Assembly (NCBI GenBank): GCA_947172415.1
Contig: OX359200.1
Coordinates: 6,636,501-6,700,500, forward strand
Source: Chondrosia reniformis
Taxonomy: Eukaryota > Porifera > Demospongiae > Chondrillida > Chondrillidae
Direction: 5' to 3'
DNA length: 64,000 nucleotides
Each line of letters opens with the position of its first letter. Positions within the stretch are counted from its first letter, which is position 1. The notes beneath the pieces are model-generated. The model ran no database searches and was not told where the DNA came from. It saw only the letters and a program-made list of their open reading frames with translations. The position numbers and the translations under genes are program-made. Positions 2,059 to 44,800 of the stretch are shown here, one piece after another.

Positions 2059-5000
2059 TCACCCAGTTCCTGGAGTGTGGGAGCTCTTTTCTAAATTCCT
2101 AAACCTGAAAGGTCTTCTAATGGTCTTCTCAACACCTTTCAAGTGAGGCTTGCCAGCTATGAAATACTTCACCACGTCTCCTTCCAGCTTCTCCATATCA
2201 AACTGTAGTGTCGGTCCAACATGACAGAGAGATGTGGTCGGATCCTCCATGCTCAACTGGTGTCTGCTACGCATTATGCTCAGAAAGAGGTGGTCCATTG
2301 AGAAGTCATCCGTCTTCTTTGAGAAGATGGCATCTGATTGGCTAAACTCCTTCACATCCATTTCTACAGGAGTCTCTGGCAGCCAGCACCGATAGGCAGT
2401 TGTCAATCCACGACTTGCCACCATGTGCACCAAGGTATTATGCAAGTTGATCTGTGTGAAAGGGATGGAGGATGTGGAAGATCAATGCATGAAACACTGT
2501 AAAATGTAAACTAGCTTATCGTACACTAAGCTAAAAGAACTCACTATATTCTGCATCACAGCACACAACCAGTCATTTCCTTCTTGAGATTCTTCAGTGG
2601 ATAGGAACCTCATAACTGGAGTTTCATCAGTGATCTTTGTGATCTGTCCTTCCTGTCTGTGTCTCAAACAACCTCCAGTACCAATCACATCTCCATTCAG
2701 ATGAACATACTCATTGAATAAACCTAGAGGAATTACAGAAGAAGTTAGTTAAGTGTTAAAAGTTTATAATAATGTACATCTTTATATACCAACCTTTCAT
2801 TCTGTTGAACAGAGTTCTAATAGCATTGGCTTCCGAAGGAAATCTTTTAGTGGCTTTTAGAATAATGTTATCAACAGTCATTTTGGGGGCTGCTTCGTAG
2901 GAGAGAAGATGAGCTAGCCTCTGGTCCAGCCAAAGGTAGAACTCCACCAGATCTGGGAGCAGAGCACTGCCGACTGCCAGTCTGTGCCTGTCATCGACAA
3001 ACTGAGCCAGGATGGGACTGACCGGAGTGCTTCCTGGAGTGGTGGATCGGCCTTCACTCAGAGACACTAGATTGTGATTAAATTCTCTTTCTGAAGGAAA
3101 ACTGGGGTACAGTGTGCTCATGACCCTATAATGTGAAGGAGAATAGTTTAAAGGGCAATCTGTGTGTGCTGCATAATTTACTCACTTCAGTTCATTGAAA
3201 AGTGGATGTCTGACTAATTCACAGTGCTGCTTCAACTACATATGGAAAGGTAAGAGAGATAAATGAGCATTGTAAGTTATGAAGATAAGTTGAAAGGTTA
3301 TAAACATCAACAAACCACATCAGACAGTCCCTGCTTGGATCTCTCATAAATCTTTGAATGCCAAACTTTCTCATACTGCAGTACACTTTCCTTGGAGTCA
3401 AATACACCTTCATTCACCTTCCCGGACTGTCCAAGCTATGTAATAGACATCATTATTACTATTATGTGTGTGTAGCAATGCATATGTTATCTGTATACTG
3501 TATGTAGTATTGTTTACCTTAAAGAGAGTGTCAAGGGACCTGACGATGAAGAAGGACCTCTCTTCATCAGTAAACTTGAGATTTACAGACATAAAGAGCC
3601 AGATCTTCCTCAAGTACTCTAAACAGAAGTGTCGTAAGGGTTGCCAATCAGAGATAATGTGACCTACAGGAAGTAGAGGCATACAGGAAGTAGAGGCGTA
3701 CAGGAAGTAGAGGTGTACAGGAAGTAGAGGTGTACAGGAAGTAGAGGTGTACAGGAAGTAGAAGTGTACTTGATAATGGAGCTAGTCACTCTAAAGTGCT
3801 AATAATGTTTGACACACCATGTATCTTGTTCTGAGCTTCAGGGTTGGTCAATAAGGAGATGCAGAGGGCTCCAAATGAGGTCCAGTTCAAGAGGTAGAAC
3901 GAGTGGAGGGAGAGACCTGACTCGTGTTCCCTGTAGTCTGGACGTTCATACTTGCCCTCTTCATTCAGCAAGATTCCACAATCAAAGAACATTTTCTCAG
4001 CTGATACTTTACTTGGATACTACAGCAAACAGAAGAAATTGTAACTTCTAAAACACTCTTTAAAAACATTCTTTGCAGTAGCTTACCATGAACCCAGGCA
4101 AGAATGTGCCCTCCAGTCTAGACTGCCCAAACAAGAAATACCACAAGTGACTGGATCCTTCAGGTAGACTGAATACCACAGCGATTAGATTAGCTAAAGC
4201 ATGTCGCAGCTCAACGTCTGATGGATCTGAATGGATGGACACACCAAAGGCAAAGGTCCATAAAGGCTGGGGTAAGTGCTTGATCAATCTACACTTACCT
4301 TCTTTTTCATCTTTTGGGTAAAAGAGACTGTGAATTGGGTCAAACTTTTCTGATTCCTTAACATTTCTCACTTTAGGTCTAACTTGTTCACCCACAAACT
4401 CAAGTATTTCTTCTCTGGCATCAGCAGGAAGAGGTGCTTCCAGATGTCTTTGCATCTCGTCAGGATTGAGGAAAGAGGAGAGAATGTCAAGCTGTCCCCT
4501 TGTAAAGTTTAACTCTCTCAATTGAGTTTTTAGTAAATGTACAAGGCTAGAGCAACGTGTCTGCATCAGAATATTATACAGTGCCAATAATCTTTTACAC
4601 TCTTTATGTACATACATACGTACGTATATGCAGGTATGTATGCACATACGTATGTCCTTAAACAACATACAGCTACTCTACATGTATTCCAGGTTCTCAC
4701 CTTATGACAGTACAATCCATAGTATGCTACAAGCCAGATTACCATTCTCATAAACTGTTTAAGGTTGACCGGTATATTGTCATATCTCAACAGCTTATTA
4801 GAACTGTAATGAAGAGATAATGCTAAAAATTGATCTGTTTCAGCATATAACGTATTACAATGTACACGTTTTAAATATAATAAATATTACTATATCAAGT
4901 AAATGTTACATGTAAATTCTACTAACCGGAGTATTTCTCTGATTACTTGGACGAAAACAGTCTGAGTTTCCTTTTCTCGTTCCTTGCCCTCATGTTGTAC

Positions 5001-5769
5001 AATATCATTCATAAGTTGTGACACTGTGCTATAGATCTCTGTGAGCTGTCCCTTGGCTCCGTGAAGCATGAAGGGCAGTAAATGGACTGATTCCTTCCCA
5101 GCACTCTACAGTCAAGAATATGATTTACTTACATTCTTTCTCTACTTGAACATAAAAAGACATATTATACACTCAAACAGAATTCTCACCTCAAGTTTAT
5201 CTTTATAATCTTGAAGAAAATCGAGGGATCTTGTGATGTTTGGTATGTTAAGGAACTCCAACAATCTTGTTGGTCCCTTTAGCTCCCTCAGAAGATGCAT
5301 CAAGACCATTTGTTCATGGCCACCATTTTCTCCTCCTCCAGTAAAGGGTTCACTTACTTTTGTACAAATGGCTTGAGACCATTCTAGTGCCTGCACAGAT
5401 ATGGCCATAGAGATGACATCATCATTGACCAATCAAAATTGAGAATATTAAATTTGGGAAGATAATCCTTACATTCTGTCTGGTGTCTTTATGTGCCAGT
5501 GCCTCTGCACTCTTCTCCAAGGCCAGCTGAACCACAGCTTGCAGTTCTATCAAGCATACCAGCTTCTCTTGAACGTGACTTTGATTATTCTGCAGATGCT
5601 GCAAAACAATTGTAGTCCATTAAAGCAATACACGTATTTAGGCTGACACCATAATAAAGTGGAATCTGTAAGAATGGTCACCTCTCTATGACAGTCACTA
5701 ACTCAACGTAGCCACTTCAATTAAGTAAGTAGTATAGTAATAGTAATAGTAATAGTAATAGTAATAGTA

Positions 5770-36015: not shown

Positions 36016-36097
36016 ATCATATTATTATTATTAATGTCGGCACTAGACTAGGTTTACATGTGTGTACGACTGTATCAGAGAGTACGGCAGTACTCTC

Positions 36098-36392
36098 TAA
36101 GTAGGGATGGTCGGAAAAAAACATGGCCACCCTATCCAATGTATTATCAATTAACACCTCATAAATCAACAACGATAGGATTTTTGGTTGCATTCGAGTG
36201 TTTGCAGTCGTTTTTGCATGCTTTTCTAAACGCCAAAACATGTTTCGATGCTCTACAACCTTCACAAAGTGGTTAAACCGAAATCTAGAAAAAGTAACGA
36301 AACAAGAAAGTGATCATATGGTAAGGCTAATATTCATACTGAAACTTAACTATACACATCACTTCTATGTTTGGGCGCATCGATCCCTACTT
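36098..36392 (+). mobile_element. Short inverted-repeat element, family with AAGTAGGNATGG ends
   Basis: It runs from AAGTAGGGATGG to GATCCCTACTT. The interior shares CCTATCCAATGTATTA, AACACCTCATAAATCAAC, CATGTTTCGATGCTCTACA, CATATGGTAAGGCTAAT and GTTTGGGCGCA with the sequence at 41248-41740. It lies downstream of VPS35. It is non-coding, so a non-autonomous DNA transposon is the likeliest identity. Confidence 0.6.
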
Positions 36393-36974
36393 CTAGTATA
36401 TCCATGATGCGCCCAAACAACAAGCCATTAGATAGAGGAAATTAGCATGTGTCTTATGACTATTGCACAATAGTTGTTATGCAATGGACCTTTACAAAGA
36501 GGTACATTCTGTGTAGATCATGTAGATGGTGTAGATGGTGTAGATATCGTAGACACTGTAGATGCTGTATGTAGATGCTGTAGATGGTGTAGACATTGTA
36601 GATACCATAGATGCTGTAAATGCTGTCGATAATTTAATATTTAATATTTTTGCTTAATTCATTTATTCTTAAGAATATGTTTTATTCTTATTTCCTATTG
36701 TGAACAAGTGAGTTTATATTGTAACAAATTTTGGTATAAAATATGTAAAACATACGGATGCATTATGTACGTATTTGCTTTCAAATCAAAATGACTTTCT
36801 TCATAGGAGCTATCAATAGAATACACAGCATATTATAATCATTTCATATTAATATTTGGAAAGAGTCATCACTTAAGTATAGTATTTCCAAAGCAAAATT
36901 CCTTGCTAAATTCTGGTTGTTCCCCTGCGTTTTGCAGATCCTGCCAAGGTATTTGGAATATGCATTATTATTGT
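36393..36974. other. Intergenic stretch with short TGTAGATG repeats
   Basis: Positions 36512-36632 hold imperfect tandem TGTAGATGC/TGTAGATGG units of about 9-12 bases. The flanks are AT-rich with no gene-like open frame. A short inverted repeat, GTTTGGGCGCAT and ATGCGCCCAAAC, brackets 36369-36418. Confidence 0.7.
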
Positions 36975-38270
36975 TCACATGCAATCATGTGTTATTATAG
37001 CATACATACCTTTAGGCATTTTTCTTGTTTTTCTTTTTCTTTGGGGTACTGTATTTCCTTCAACATTATCTTTGTTTACCTCTACATTTCCTTCAACATT
37101 ACATTCATTTTTCTCTGCATTTCCTTCAACATTACATTCATTTTTCTCTGCATTTCCTTCCACATTACATTCATTTATCTCTGCATTTCCTTCCACATTA
37201 CATTCATTTTTCTCTGCATTTCCTTCCACATTACATTCATTTATCTCTGCATTTCCTTCAACATTACATTCATTTTTCTCTGCATTTCCTTTAACATTAC
37301 ATTCATTTTTCTCTGCATTTCCTTTAACATTACATTCATTTATCTCTGCATTTCCTTCAACATTACATTCATTTTTCTCTGCATTTCCTTCAACATTACA
37401 TTCATTTATCTCTGCATTTCCTTCAACATTACATTCATTTTTCTCTGCATTTCCTTTAACATTACATTCATTTTTCTCTGCATTTCCTTTAACATTACAT
37501 TCATTTATCTCTGCATTTCCTTCAACATTACATTCATTTTTCTCTGCATTTCCTTCAACATTACATTCATTTTTCTCTGCATTTCCTTCCCTATTACATT
37601 CATTTATCTCAGCATTTCCTTTAACATTACATTCGTTTATCTCTGCATTTCCTTCAACATTACATTCATTTTTCTCTGTATTTCCTTCCATATTACATTC
37701 ATTTATCTCAGCATTTCCTTTAACATTACATTCGTTTTTCTCTTCATTTCCTTCAACATTACATTCATTTCTCTCTGCATTTCCTTCCACATTACATTTG
37801 TTTACCTCTGCATTTCTTTTACCATTATCTTTGTTATCATCTGTATACTCTTTCATGCTATATTTATTTGTGACTTCTGTAGTTGATGTTTTGGGAGCTG
37901 AGCAAACTGAATAAAAAATCTTATCTGATAAATATTGTATACATATAAGATATAAGATACAAACCTGATTGCAGTGCCTCTGCCAGTTCATTATTGAGGC
38001 ATGTCTTGTGCACAGGGGGTTATTCCTCTTAGGACCAACAGCCCTCTGCAACATTGATGCAGTTGTTGGATCTACGGGTATTTCTGTAAATACAAACATA
38101 AACTGCTTAGTTTTTGCTTGATACTTCATGCGTTGTAGTATATCCCCCCTTGATTGGCCTGCTGTCCATATAGTAACACTTCGAATTTCCTGTGCATACT
38201 TTTCCATGGCGCTGCCTGTGTCTATAGGCACTGTTTGGCAGTCATTTACTACTTCTGATGTTGGCTCCAT
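36975..38270 (-). CDS. Repeat protein: 23 tandem 11-residue units ECNVEGNAEKN
   Basis: A 431-codon frame. Residues 1 to about 100 are non-repetitive (starts MEPTSEVVNDCQ; contains IWTAGQSRGDILQRMKYQ and FVFTEIPVDPTTASMLQRAV). A hydrophobic stretch (ILYLICIQYLSDKIF) comes next, then 23 units of 11 residues with consensus E-C-N-V-E/K-G-N-A-E-K/I-N, and a basic tail QRKRKTRKMPKG. One cysteine recurs every 11 residues. The hydrophobic stretch could instead be an unspliced intron: the candidate GTTTGT...TTCAG is 58 bases and would break the frame, so the single-exon reading is preferred. I do not recognise the family. Frames on the opposite strand are also open across the array, as expected for a 33-base repeat. 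Confidence 0.5.
   Translation of the reverse strand: MEPTSEVVNDCQTVPIDTGSAMEKYAQEIRSVTIWTAGQSRGDILQRMKYQAKTKQFMFVFTEIPVDPTTASMLQRAVGPKRNNPLCTRHASIMNWQRHCNQVCILYLICIQYLSDKIFYSVCSAPKTSTTEVTNKYSMKEYTDDNKDNGKRNAEVNKCNVEGNAERNECNVEGNEEKNECNVKGNAEINECNMEGNTEKNECNVEGNAEINECNVKGNAEINECNREGNAEKNECNVEGNAEKNECNVEGNAEINECNVKGNAEKNECNVKGNAEKNECNVEGNAEINECNVEGNAEKNECNVEGNAEINECNVKGNAEKNECNVKGNAEKNECNVEGNAEINECNVEGNAEKNECNVEGNAEINECNVEGNAEKNECNVEGNAEKNECNVEGNVEVNKDNVEGNTVPQRKRKTRKMPKGMYAIITHDCM
37060..37815. repeat. 33-bp coding minisatellite, about 23 copies, with higher-order units
   Basis: The plus-strand unit is ATTTCCTTCAACATTACATT plus CATTTTTCTCTGC. Variants recur in order: units 9-13 and 14-18 of the encoded protein have the same I,K,K,I,K pattern at position 10 with KGN in their second and third units. 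The array thus grew partly by 165-base (five-unit) duplications. Confidence 0.9.
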
Positions 38271-39620: not shown

Positions 39621-40786
39621 ATGGAGGAAAAAAAGATCGTCGAATTCCTGAATGAACCTGATTTTAACCAACGGTTTCTTAACTACAATGACTCAAGGAA
39701 ATGGGTGCCAACGCTCCAGCGAAAGAATGCCATTAGAGCTGCCGATTCACAAGCGATCCAGTCAAAGCATACTAGCGAGGAAGCTAATAATTATTTACTC
39801 ACTCTTCTTGTCCAGGATCCTTCACTTAGAAAATTGAGAGCACTTTCTGAGGCTTTGAAGGAAGACGAGACTCACGATAACCAGCAAAAATTAGCGAAGA
39901 AGATTAACCATTTCTTAAAATCACAAGGTACAGTCAAATTATATATGCAAGCTGAGAATGAAACTTTGTCTCATATTACTGTATTTCACTAGAGCCTCAA
40001 ACAGTTTCCATCGAAAGGGAGAGACCGAGACATGATGCTGGACTACAGAAATACGACATCACCGTCGATTCGTGTCTTCCGACCATGGAGTATACCTTAA
40101 TGAGCCGTCCTGCACAAAGTGCAAAGGACTTAATGATGTCCCTTTACTTTTCTGCATATTCCCTCATCGTAGCATTGTTCACAGAGGGACACTTAGACAA
40201 GATCAAGGGGCAGGCTCTCCTGATTATTGATCATGGACACATGCTTAGGGTAGAAGGAAAGGAGAAATCAGTTATCATGGCAGCTGAGTCTGTTAAGAAA
40301 GTTTTAGATTATCTTGGTATTCCTGACTTGTGGGATGACCTCCTGCTGTTTGTAACCATTCTTCTTCCACTCAAGAATTGTGATCCGAGCTGCTACAAAG
40401 AGGCTATGGGGAACCTGAATCACTACAAACAACATCTCCTTCAATATCTGAAGGTCCAGCATATGATGAAGAATACCAAGGCACTCCGAGGACCTGAGAA
40501 GACCCCAGGACAAGATCAGGTAGAGGTGCATTTTACAGTAGAAAATAACATTTTTCAGCTTCAATATAGTACCTGTAATGAGCTGTTGTTGGTAGTACTA
40601 GCGGAAGGTGTAGGTATTTCACGAGATAAGATTGAATGTGGTTCAGTTCAACCAGGCAGCTCCATTATAACCTTCTACATACCAAAGCAGTATATTAAAT
40701 CAGTGAACAAGACCTACAAAGGAGCAGTCATTTGGGCTATGCTAGAGCTTAGAGTAATTTGGTGTGGAGACACAATGTTGGTGTGA
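39621..40786 (+). CDS. Helical death-fold-like (possible CARD) protein; probable 5' part of copy B
   Basis: Two exons, 39621-39927 and 39993-40786, in phase (G/AG), give 366 residues if translation stops at 40784-40786. Residues 1-102 are helical: EEKKIVEFLNEPDF, then HTSEEANNYLLTLLVQD and LRKLRALSEALKED. The spacing of the last two recalls CARD helices 4-5, but this is pattern recognition only. Residues about 130-270 form a second helical domain (AKDLMMSLYFSAYSLIVALF). The C-terminal 85 residues (EVHFTVENNIFQLQYS, CGSVQPGSSIITFYIPKQY) form a small beta/alpha domain whose GSxxxTFxIP signature recurs in sponge and cnidarian multidomain proteins as I recall. A donor TTG/GTGTGA at 40781 would bypass the stop and join the exon at 40993 in frame. 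No AATAAA follows closely. Confidence 0.6.
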
Positions 40787-40992
40787 TGTTATGAATACTA
40801 TTACCTTTCTGTGAATACTGTTAGCTGATTATGAATTATGCAATTGTATCCTAATATACGTATATTATCTCCTATCTTTGAAAAGTAGTCTTTCACTTCA
40901 ATTTTGTAAAGTTTTGGACCTGTATACATATTTATGACACCAGAACCTTTGCACTGGCTCCTTTTCACATAATATATACCCACTCCTTACAG

Positions 40993-41086
40993 CCTCCACT
41001 TCCTGGGAAGAAAGGTCTCCCTCTCCAGAGGTACAAGCCACAACTCTTGTCAGATTCCTTCTCTGATGTACTCCTGTTTACTCAAG
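40993..41086 (+). CDS. Candidate 94-base exon linking the 39621 gene to copy B
   Basis: It is bounded by ACTCCTTACAG and CAAG/GTAAGT, both strong splice signals. It reads PLPGKKGLPLQRYKPQLL then SDSFSDVLLFTQ without a stop. It leaves one base (G), and the acceptor GCTCTTGTTAG at 41871 supplies AC, giving GAC ATA ATG in frame with copy B exon 1. Upstream it takes phase 0 from a donor at 40781. I know no family for it. Confidence 0.5.
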
Positions 41087-41247
41087 GTAAGTTGTGCAGT
41101 TGTATGATTTTCTATTTACAGTATTATACCAATTTGGGACTGGGCAATTTGCATGGTTTTGTAAAGGATTTTAACTTATTTGTACATACATGTTATCAAT
41201 TCAATATCAAGTAAAGTAAAAAAAAACATTTACAAAAATGATGTTAG

Positions 41248-41740
41248 AAGTAGGAATGGCAGTGTTCACTAATACATCTGCAAAAAGTATCGAAACAAGA
41301 CACTGATTATATGGTAAGGCTAATCATATAGAAGTTACATATATACTGAAATTTAAGTAACTTAACCATACACTTCTGTGTTTGGGCGCACCAAGCTGAA
41401 GTAGGAATGTCTATTCCCTAGTTTGGAAATATTTATGACGATTTATACCTTTTATGTGTCCATATAAGTTCGCATATTAGCGCTAGTCCATTCATTGACA
41501 ATAAAAGAAGAAGAAAAAATGAATTTTGGAAATGGGCCTATTTCTGATTAGCCGCTTTTTGAATGTTGTAGAGCGTGTAGAGTGTGTAGAGCATCGAAAC
41601 ATGTTTTGGCATTTAGAAAAGTGTGCATTATTGGTTGCAAATAACCGAATATAACCGAAAATCGCTTCGTTGGTGATTTATGAGGTGTTGCTTGCTAATA
41701 CATTGGATAGGGCGGCCATTTTTTCCGGCCATTCCTACTT
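41248..41740 (-). mobile_element. Composite short inverted-repeat element upstream of copy B
   Basis: It begins AAGTAGGAATGGC and ends GCCATTCCTACTT, perfect 13-base inverted repeats. The right two thirds match 36098-36290 in inverted orientation (CATTGGATAGGGCGGCC, TTTATGAGGTGTT, GAGCATCGAAACATGTTTTG). The left third matches 36290-36390 in direct orientation and ends in its own GAAGTAGGAATG. It therefore looks like two copies or one rearranged copy. It ends 136 bases upstream of the copy B ATG, inside the intron or promoter region. Confidence 0.6.
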
Positions 41741-41871
41741 AGAGAGTACGGTATGATAAGGTAGGAGACGTTCTCTGGCACTACATCAGACAATCAAATT
41801 ATTGAATATCTGAATAGCCCTACACAGTGATAGCTAGCATGTGTTATGGCTTATATATCCGCTCTTGTTAG

Positions 41872-44800
41872 ACATAATGACAAAACAAGGGCATGAAACT
41901 GCTGTTGCCCTTTCTGATATAAATCTGGAGGAAAGGGATGACAAGGAAAGTAGTTTCGGTGTGCCTGAAGTGAAGGTACAGACAGAGAATGAAGATTCAT
42001 TTCAGCACATTGCTGAACAAGAGCCTTCAACACAAGACCAGCCATGTGGTTAGTTGTCTAGTCAATTACTATCCGGGTCAGGTTCAAGGAACACATTGAA
42101 AGATCAGGTTATTCCATTAAGTGTATTGATCAAAAATAACTCATTTCTTACTTCTCATATATTACAATTATCCACATCTACAATGAGAAAGACGTGCTCT
42201 ATATTCTTCACATACTCTGTCTCCATACGTACATACATACTAACTGAATATATATATTTGTGTTTATGTACATTTTACTGCATTCTTGTTGTTGAAATGT
42301 TATCAAAACTACAGTTTAAAGTGAATGAGTCTTACTGTCATATGAGGTCACACTAGACTCATTGTTGTGTGTACTCACCTGGTTGACCCAACATGTGATG
42401 TAGAGGTTTTGGGACTTGTAGTATTTTCTAATTGACTCTTATTTAGTTTTGAAAGTGATGGTACAAGGTTCTGACAAAGAGCTGTCCATCCTTTGTTCAA
42501 TTCCTGCTGGATCTACCTTCTCGAATGCTAACTGGATCAAGTGTATTGGACCTAATGATGACACAGCAGATGTTGCATTTCAATATATTTTAGCATTTGA
42601 ACTTAATAAAGAAAAGCACAGTTTGCATACTGTATTAGAGGACACACGAAGCAAGAACATACTTGGATACATTTTAGTCAACTACCTGAATAGTGTGGAC
42701 CTGCCAGATGATTTCTGGGACTGTGACTTTCCTCAAAGCTGCTCATTTTGTATTTTGAGGAGGAATGATGGCACTAAACTTCTATCTCTTCTCTCTGACA
42801 TGGATAACCCAGGTGATCTGCAAGTCAGTGTTGCCCTGGAAACCAGTGTGGATGACCTACCTTCAAGTGACATGGACAAGCCAATCATTGATGAGGATGA
42901 CCGTATGTACTTGTGCAGTCAATTGTGAATTCTCTTCTTTTAATGAAACCATTGACCAAACTATACATTGCTATTCTTGATATCTTTAGAACCAGGCTGG
43001 TTACATTTTGGAAAGAAAGTTTATTCTTTAAGCAAACAGTTAAAGAGCTATTTTTCTAATCCCAAGGTAGAGATTAATGAAACTCTATTCATTCATGTTG
43101 CCTCACATCTGAAAAAGTTTGAGACAAATGTAAGTTGTTTATCAATTTATTTATACAAATTCAAAATCTATAACATTTCATATTCTTTGCTTAAAGGACT
43201 CAAGATGTGATCTAGAAAAAGGTTTAAAGTATCTAAGGGATCGGGTGAACCTGCCAAATTTTATAAATGAAGCATTACTTCATCTGATCATTGTATACAG
43301 AATACTAAAGCAAGTTCCACTGCTCCTCTGTTAACTTGAATGATAAGTTATGGTTCTATTATTGTGTGTATATTTCATAGAAATGAGATTGTGTATGGGA
43401 GATGTGATAATGTTCACGAGTATATAAAAAGCTTTATCAGTAAGTTTGAAGACCTTAGTGGAGATGGATCCTTCCCTGTTGTAATAAAAAAATTCTTGAA
43501 AAAGTAAATGGAGAGTGCTGTTACCTATGTATTAGGAGGTCCAATAGCTGAGTTAATTTTTATCTCACTTTGGTGTAGTGACTTTGATATTACTGGAGCT
43601 GATCAGAAACTAACTACTGTATTCTTTGAACTCTACAAAGCAACTTTAAGATTGTGTAGAACTTCTAAGGCAGTTAATCAACAGACTGTTGGGAGGAGAC
43701 TCATTTGGGGTAAGGGAACTGTAATGGAAAATGTTTGTTTACCATCATCATTTCATAAGATATGGATACATACGTATCTCTGTGTATTTCTTGACTCCTG
43801 CTGTATACAGTGTTCATCCACTTGTTGTTTGGAATGGAGGTATCAGATCCCGAGAGGCTTAATGGTTTTTGGAGAAGGATCATTAATGCAAAAGAGGTCT
43901 GTTTGACTGTTAATTAATTATGATAGTTCCGTAAATTCATTTCTCTTTTATAGTATTTTGGAGAAGGGAAATATGGACCAGATGACTTTCAGGATATTCA
44001 AAGGACGATTCAGTTTGGATACTCCTTTGATATTCCTGAAGAGTTGCAATTCTCTGGTGACAACCTTGCTCACTTGTTAATTACAAATGGGAAGATTTAT
44101 CATTTTCAAAATCTCAGGTTTGTATTGAGGAACACATGTAATGGTTATGTAATAGCTATGTATGTATTATTGTGTTAATTTTGTAGGGTAATTCTGAGCA
44201 CATTCAAGGGGACACTTTTCCAATTTCATAGAAATCTGTATGCCTTTTTGCTGTCATATGTTTCAGCCGTAGATGACTACATCACACCTAGAAAGGAAGA
44301 GTTAACTTATTTAAGTGCAGGTGGGGATTTGGGTACAGTTCTGGAAGAGGTACGATATAATCATATTCATTGTACATATGTATGTATGTATGTATGTACT
44401 GTTATTGTATAGTGGGAAATTTTCGAGGGACAAACTTTTCACGAATTGCACCATTTTGCAAAATTCAAGGAAAATATTTTCGCGAATCCCTACTATAGAA
44501 ATTAGTAGTTCAAGTTTTGGGCCCCCACGAGTTTTTTAAAGTCGAAATACTTGCTTCCATGTGCATGAAGCAGAGTAGTTTTTCAGGAATGGCTGTGAAC
44601 GAAGAGGTCTACATTATTCAGTCGAAGATTTGAGGATATCACGTTTACAAGAACATATGGGAAGCTTGTATCAGCGAGAGGCTTAGCTGTTTCGCTTGAA
44701 GTACCTCAAAAGAGACATAGGTCCTACACACGCGGTCAAAAGAAAGCTTCCACTTTGAAAAATTTTCCAGGTCCAAACATTTCACGAATGTCCAGCTATT

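Follow-up and report, generated by a model that had tools for sequence, protein, structure and literature searches.

Splice signals between a CARD-like exon and an RNF213-like gene in the sponge Chondrosia reniformis probably belong to two neighbouring genes

Does the sponge Chondrosia reniformis encode a protein in which a death-fold-like domain precedes an RNF213-like core, or do two genes lie next to each other there? The question is raised by a stretch of 64,000 nt (the window; C12:6636501-6700500 of genome G000, 117,379,552 bases in 15 contigs), in which a gene beginning at 39621 stands ahead of an RNF213-like gene, copy B. An earlier note had proposed that the 39621 gene, an exon at 40993-41086 and exon 1 of copy B are spliced into a single frame, and the signals it named are all present: a GT at 40781 in phase 0, the 94-base exon, an AG at 41870-41871 and a join reading GAC ATA ATG. 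We know of no CARD in RNF213, and the portions of the RNF213 literature available to us yielded no CARD-RNF213 architecture. We consider it likely that these are two separate genes, a rearrangement having brought a truncated CARD-like paralogue next to copy B, and a repeat now separating the two.

Splice sites were scored with a matrix built on 24 introns common to copy B and its window neighbour, copy A, taken from 37 filtered copy B introns; a self-trained splice model was dropped as it drifted to many micro-exons. Donor scores are rough, and since a conserved donor (that of exon E1 of the CARD-family gene, 2.67) and a conserved acceptor (that of its exon E2, 0.15) also score low, a low score does not exclude use. 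The 40781 donor is in phase 0, as claimed, but scores 3.47, with one of the 24 reference donors as low or lower, and in all six relatives the corresponding position is intronic. A second candidate, AGA/GTAATT at 40754, is likewise in phase 0 and scores 4.23 (again one of 24 at or below); it sits exactly on the deletion junction described below, and CCA/GTAATT occurs among the reference donors. GT sites scoring at least as high as the 40754 and 40781 candidates make up 17% and 24%, respectively, of those in the window, against 0.1% for the donor of the 94-base exon, whose score of 10.44 equals or exceeds those of all 24 references. The copy B acceptor, at 6.0, falls in the lower quarter of the 24 references (range 3.1-12.0). 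With either candidate donor (exon ending at 40753 or 40780), the joined frame runs without a stop from E1 into exon 1 of copy B. Given the phases, one donor would be expected to join one acceptor in frame by chance in about a third of cases, and the open joined frame is therefore, alone, weak evidence.

The relatives of the 39621 gene indicate what has happened to it. Searched as DNA against the genome, 39600-41100 shows the gene to be one of seven near-complete copies, with a fragment besides; the seven other near copies of its E1-E2 found in this way, the fragment being one, are 90-92% identical to it. The six fuller relatives (L009-L014) were taken into an alignment, from which the fragment was left out. 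All six have E1 (CARD-like), E2, E3 (39 nt) and E4 with common splice sites, followed by E5. In the window, on the plus strand, E1 (39621..39927; a CARD-like helical domain of 102 codons plus 1 nt) is open, with 75-85% protein identity to the six. It is followed by a truncated exon 2, E2' (39993..40753), which covers a helical part and the first part of a GSxxxTFxIP domain; the last 38 codons of E2 and the donor are gone. In the six relatives these codons are intact, ending in AATACCAAG/GTATGT. The junction, at 40753..40754, marks the absence of 440-570 bp (the E2 end, intron 2, E3 and most of intron 3) that six of six relatives keep, and it creates the AGA/GTAATT site. Since the E2 end is present not only in L009-L014 but in L016, L017 and L018, which are less closely related, the window copy has suffered a deletion. 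What follows, 40754..40786 (plus strand), is former intron-3 sequence, intronic in all six relatives, read through to a TGA at 40784-40786 and containing the 40781 donor.

The 94-base exon had been described as lone; it is in fact E4 of this multi-copy gene (40993..41086, plus strand, phase 0 to 1; acceptor TTACAG, donor AAG/GTAAGT), with splice sites kept in the six relatives. E4 occurs at no fewer than nine places in the genome, the window included, and each of the eight outside adjoins an E2 exon of the 39621 family. Beyond E4 the window copy departs from the family: similarity to the relatives ends at about 41212, and a search for E5 in window 41001-42000 gave only chance-level matches (best E 0.09, 16 nt). 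By eye, coiled-coil-looking exons lie 3' of E4/E5 in L010, L011, L013, L014, L017 and L018; none was found in the stretches fetched for L009, L012 and L016. No RNF213-like gene was found adjoining any of the six relatives. E1 and E2' are open in all seven copies, the window copy having no stop or frameshift, and dN/dS between it and its relatives is 0.48-0.65 over 349 codons (0.21-0.73 among the relatives themselves), a range that does not clearly suggest neutrality. At L016 (C2:10036000-10044900, minus strand, ~4145-5353), a 403-aa open frame lies about 540 bp past the E4 of that distant relative and, by eye, contains several divergent ubiquitin repeats.

As to the nature of exon 1, the suspected death-fold module holds at the level of profiles, but the exon alone has no Pfam CARD (PF00619) match at E up to 1, and lies below the gathering score of 23.9. 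A profile of 31 exon-1 family members (A1: the window, 10 of 30 listed loci and 20 further matches) was aligned by hhalign with one built from 20 of 25 stretches of this genome that are Pfam-CARD-positive (A3), giving Prob 96.0% and E 4.2e-9 over 70 columns; the single control, the middle domain of the 39621 family (A2) against A3, gave Prob 0.7%. Against PDB, 7 of the 11 sequences listed for A1 were CARD8 or BCL10; the best E, 0.03, is by itself not significant. Pfam CARD was matched at E up to 1 by 4 of the 31 members (best E 1.9e-4); ten members were scored singly, and three of the four CARD-matching ones, at 20.7, 14.1 and 21.8 bits, fell under the cut-off. AF2, run on the single exon 1 sequence, returned six helices at a mean pLDDT of 52.8, a low confidence and too low for a fold search. 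Exon 1 would resemble the CARDs of BCL10 and CARD8 in being a helical domain of some 90-100 residues, while differing in the want of a Pfam match of its own. Its membership in a large CARD-like family of this genome is supported at profile level: there are at least 150 matches to the family (332 candidates, of which 150 were scored) and 25 Pfam CARD matches. By eye the two sets have no place in common. In another sponge, Dysidea avara, NLR genes carry an N-terminal CARD or Death domain (PMC12909245), and the two cases are alike in that CARD domains have multiplied in a sponge and stand in combination with other domains. In the 39621 family, by contrast, the middle domain has no significant match in Pfam or PDB.

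The acceptor directly before the exon 1 ATG, which the earlier note noticed in both window copies and took as a sign of an internal exon, is found in all four RNF213-like copies compared at the 5' end (A, B, C14 at C14:4152815 and C12b at C12:4640952) and is accounted for by a predicted 5'-UTR intron. In copy B this intron would span 41761..41871 (111 nt, plus strand; donor AAG/GTAGGA, acceptor TTGTTAG/A); its counterpart in A, C14 and C12b measures 131-143 nt. The UTR donor of B scores 5.76, weaker than those of A (8.39), C14 (7.68) and C12b (8.39). Homology of these three copies to B extends into the 5' UTR. Upstream of the ATG, A and C14 share about 270 bp, and C12b about 170 bp, with a second, detached stretch farther upstream; copy B keeps 93 bp of native sequence by BLAST (from 41784), the multiple alignment giving about 127 bp, before the repeat begins, at which homology to A stops. 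A 470-base query from A's upstream end had no other match upstream of B in the window.

This repeat, probably a transposable element, occupies 41214..41749 in two pieces (41214-41408 and 41402-41749) and takes up the space separating copy B from what is left of the CARD gene. Further copies lie at L011/L015, L014, L050, L019, L024 and window 36090-36257. It contains acceptor-like sites, one of which, at 41422, scores 6.72, above the acceptor of B, and an AATAAA at 41500. Elsewhere in the window, at 36917-37975 on the minus strand, a 33-bp repeat array lies inside a 431-aa open frame with pentapeptide-repeat matches. Upstream of B, 38 A1/A2 queries together with E4 and E5 gave 39 CARD-family matches; the same queries found CARD-family exons in none of five other RNF213-like upstream stretches (A, 7.7 kb; C14, C12b, C6 and C5, 1.1-1.5 kb each, those of C6 and C5 lying upstream of an exon-2-like match and possibly including exon 1). 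With 150 of 332 candidates scored, the CARD-like matches nearest the C14 copy lie at a distance of at least about 65 kb. RNF213-like exon 2 has seven matches in the genome, none of which adjoins another CARD-family copy among the scored matches.

That copy B has an RNF213-like core is borne out in part. Exon 58395-58814 matches RNF213, the giant AAA+ E3 ubiquitin ligase, at E 1.7e-6, but the second of the two exons tested has no RNF213 match; Walker-like motifs can be seen by eye in the rough gene model. Exon 1 (41872..42048, plus strand, ATG at 41877) occurs in all four copies compared, in shorter form in C14 and C12b, and the rest of the model runs from 42447 to 63971 on the same strand and may extend past the window end. 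Copies A and B stand head to head (window 1-28245 and 41877-63971). Of the 61 model exons of at least 75 nt, 58 could be placed in A, with an identity of about 84-97% in the 5' exons that rises to 94-100% in the 3' exons, a gradient of the kind expected from gene conversion in an inverted pair. Over rough-model exons, dN/dS between A and B is 0.39 at the 5' end (611 codons) and 0.23 further on (3098 codons), a single A stop facing a B codon having been excluded. Gaps not divisible by three occur in 7 of the 58 exons; some cancel or sit at uncertain exon edges. About 23 kb past the window end, at C12:6723787 (L024), there is a partial copy of RNF213-like 5' exons with the same type of repeat nearby.

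We suggest, then, that the 39621 gene retains E1, most of E2 and E4, the 5' portion of a CARD-like gene; fuller paralogues of it go on to E5, and in most of those seen, judged by eye, past it into coiled-coil-looking exons. The window copy would have been shortened twice, by the internal 440-570 bp deletion and by the disappearance of all its sequence downstream of about 41212, so that the repeat and then copy B now follow the remnant. If expressed, the 39621 gene would most likely end at TGA 40784-40786, with a predicted product of 366 residues that holds the CARD-like domain and a portion of the domain next to it; alternatively, the gene may be a decaying fragment. Copy B would begin with a conserved ATG of its own (41877), and the preceding acceptor would be that of the predicted 5'-UTR intron. 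The exon structure of the relatives, the deletion, the repeat, the UTR-intron sites that the copies share and the want of CARD-family exons upstream of other RNF213-like copies can be read from the DNA itself; separate transcription of both genes, use of the UTR intron and a part for the repeat in the rearrangement are what we infer. The proposed fusion is not what these data favor, given that the relatives continue to E5, that the E2 donor is deleted, that the acceptor appears to be that of a UTR intron and that none of the five other upstream stretches has a CARD-family exon.

Several findings count against two separate genes. Copy B is without the native upstream region common to A, C14 and C12b, and its UTR donor is the weaker one; the E4 donor stands above all 24 references, and the joined frame from E1 to copy B is open; E1 and E2' have neither stop nor frameshift, and their dN/dS is that given above. 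These points could be read as the marks of a young chimeric gene, in which truncation and a repeat-bounded rearrangement put the front half of a CARD gene before a copy B that lacks its own upstream region, so that the CARD promoter would drive E1, E2' and E4 spliced in frame into copy B to give a CARD-like RNF213 protein. The E4 donor and B acceptor lie within the range of the 24 reference introns, the site at 40754 has a counterpart of its kind among the reference donors, and the RNF213-like genes look maintained by their A/B dN/dS (0.39 and 0.23, rough model). However, E2 has lost its real donor, and the two sites that could replace it are weak; a message crossing the repeat would meet an acceptor-like site stronger than that of B, and an AATAAA; the acceptor of B is otherwise explained; and no second example was found among the scored matches in the genome. 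We regard such a chimera, and this origin for it, as improbable, and keep it in consideration because B's upstream region is lost and the E4 donor is strong.

More improbable still is that both parts are dead, the CARD fragment being untranscribed and copy B a promoterless, silent copy kept A-like by gene conversion. The loss of B's upstream region, the rise in A/B identity toward the 3' end, as gene conversion would give, and the seven exons with gaps not divisible by three (with the reservations noted) agree with this, whereas E1, E2' and most copy B exons are open and A/B dN/dS is below 0.4. Two neighbouring genes, one of them truncated, account for the strong donor, the acceptor and the open frame through a truncated paralogue and a 5'-UTR intron, and the case is, in that respect, a lesson in reading splice signals without relatives.

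The CARD-like family has a bearing beyond this locus. With at least 150 family matches in the genome, and yet only 4 of 31 tested members reaching Pfam CARD even at E up to 1, it suggests that Pfam-based counts of CARD genes in sponges may be too low. Were the chimeric message to prove real, it would be a freshly made immune-type protein that joins a death-fold adaptor to an RNF213 machine, with its parents still in the genome, and such a protein could use its CARD to form clusters and could ubiquitylate its partners or the surfaces of pathogens.
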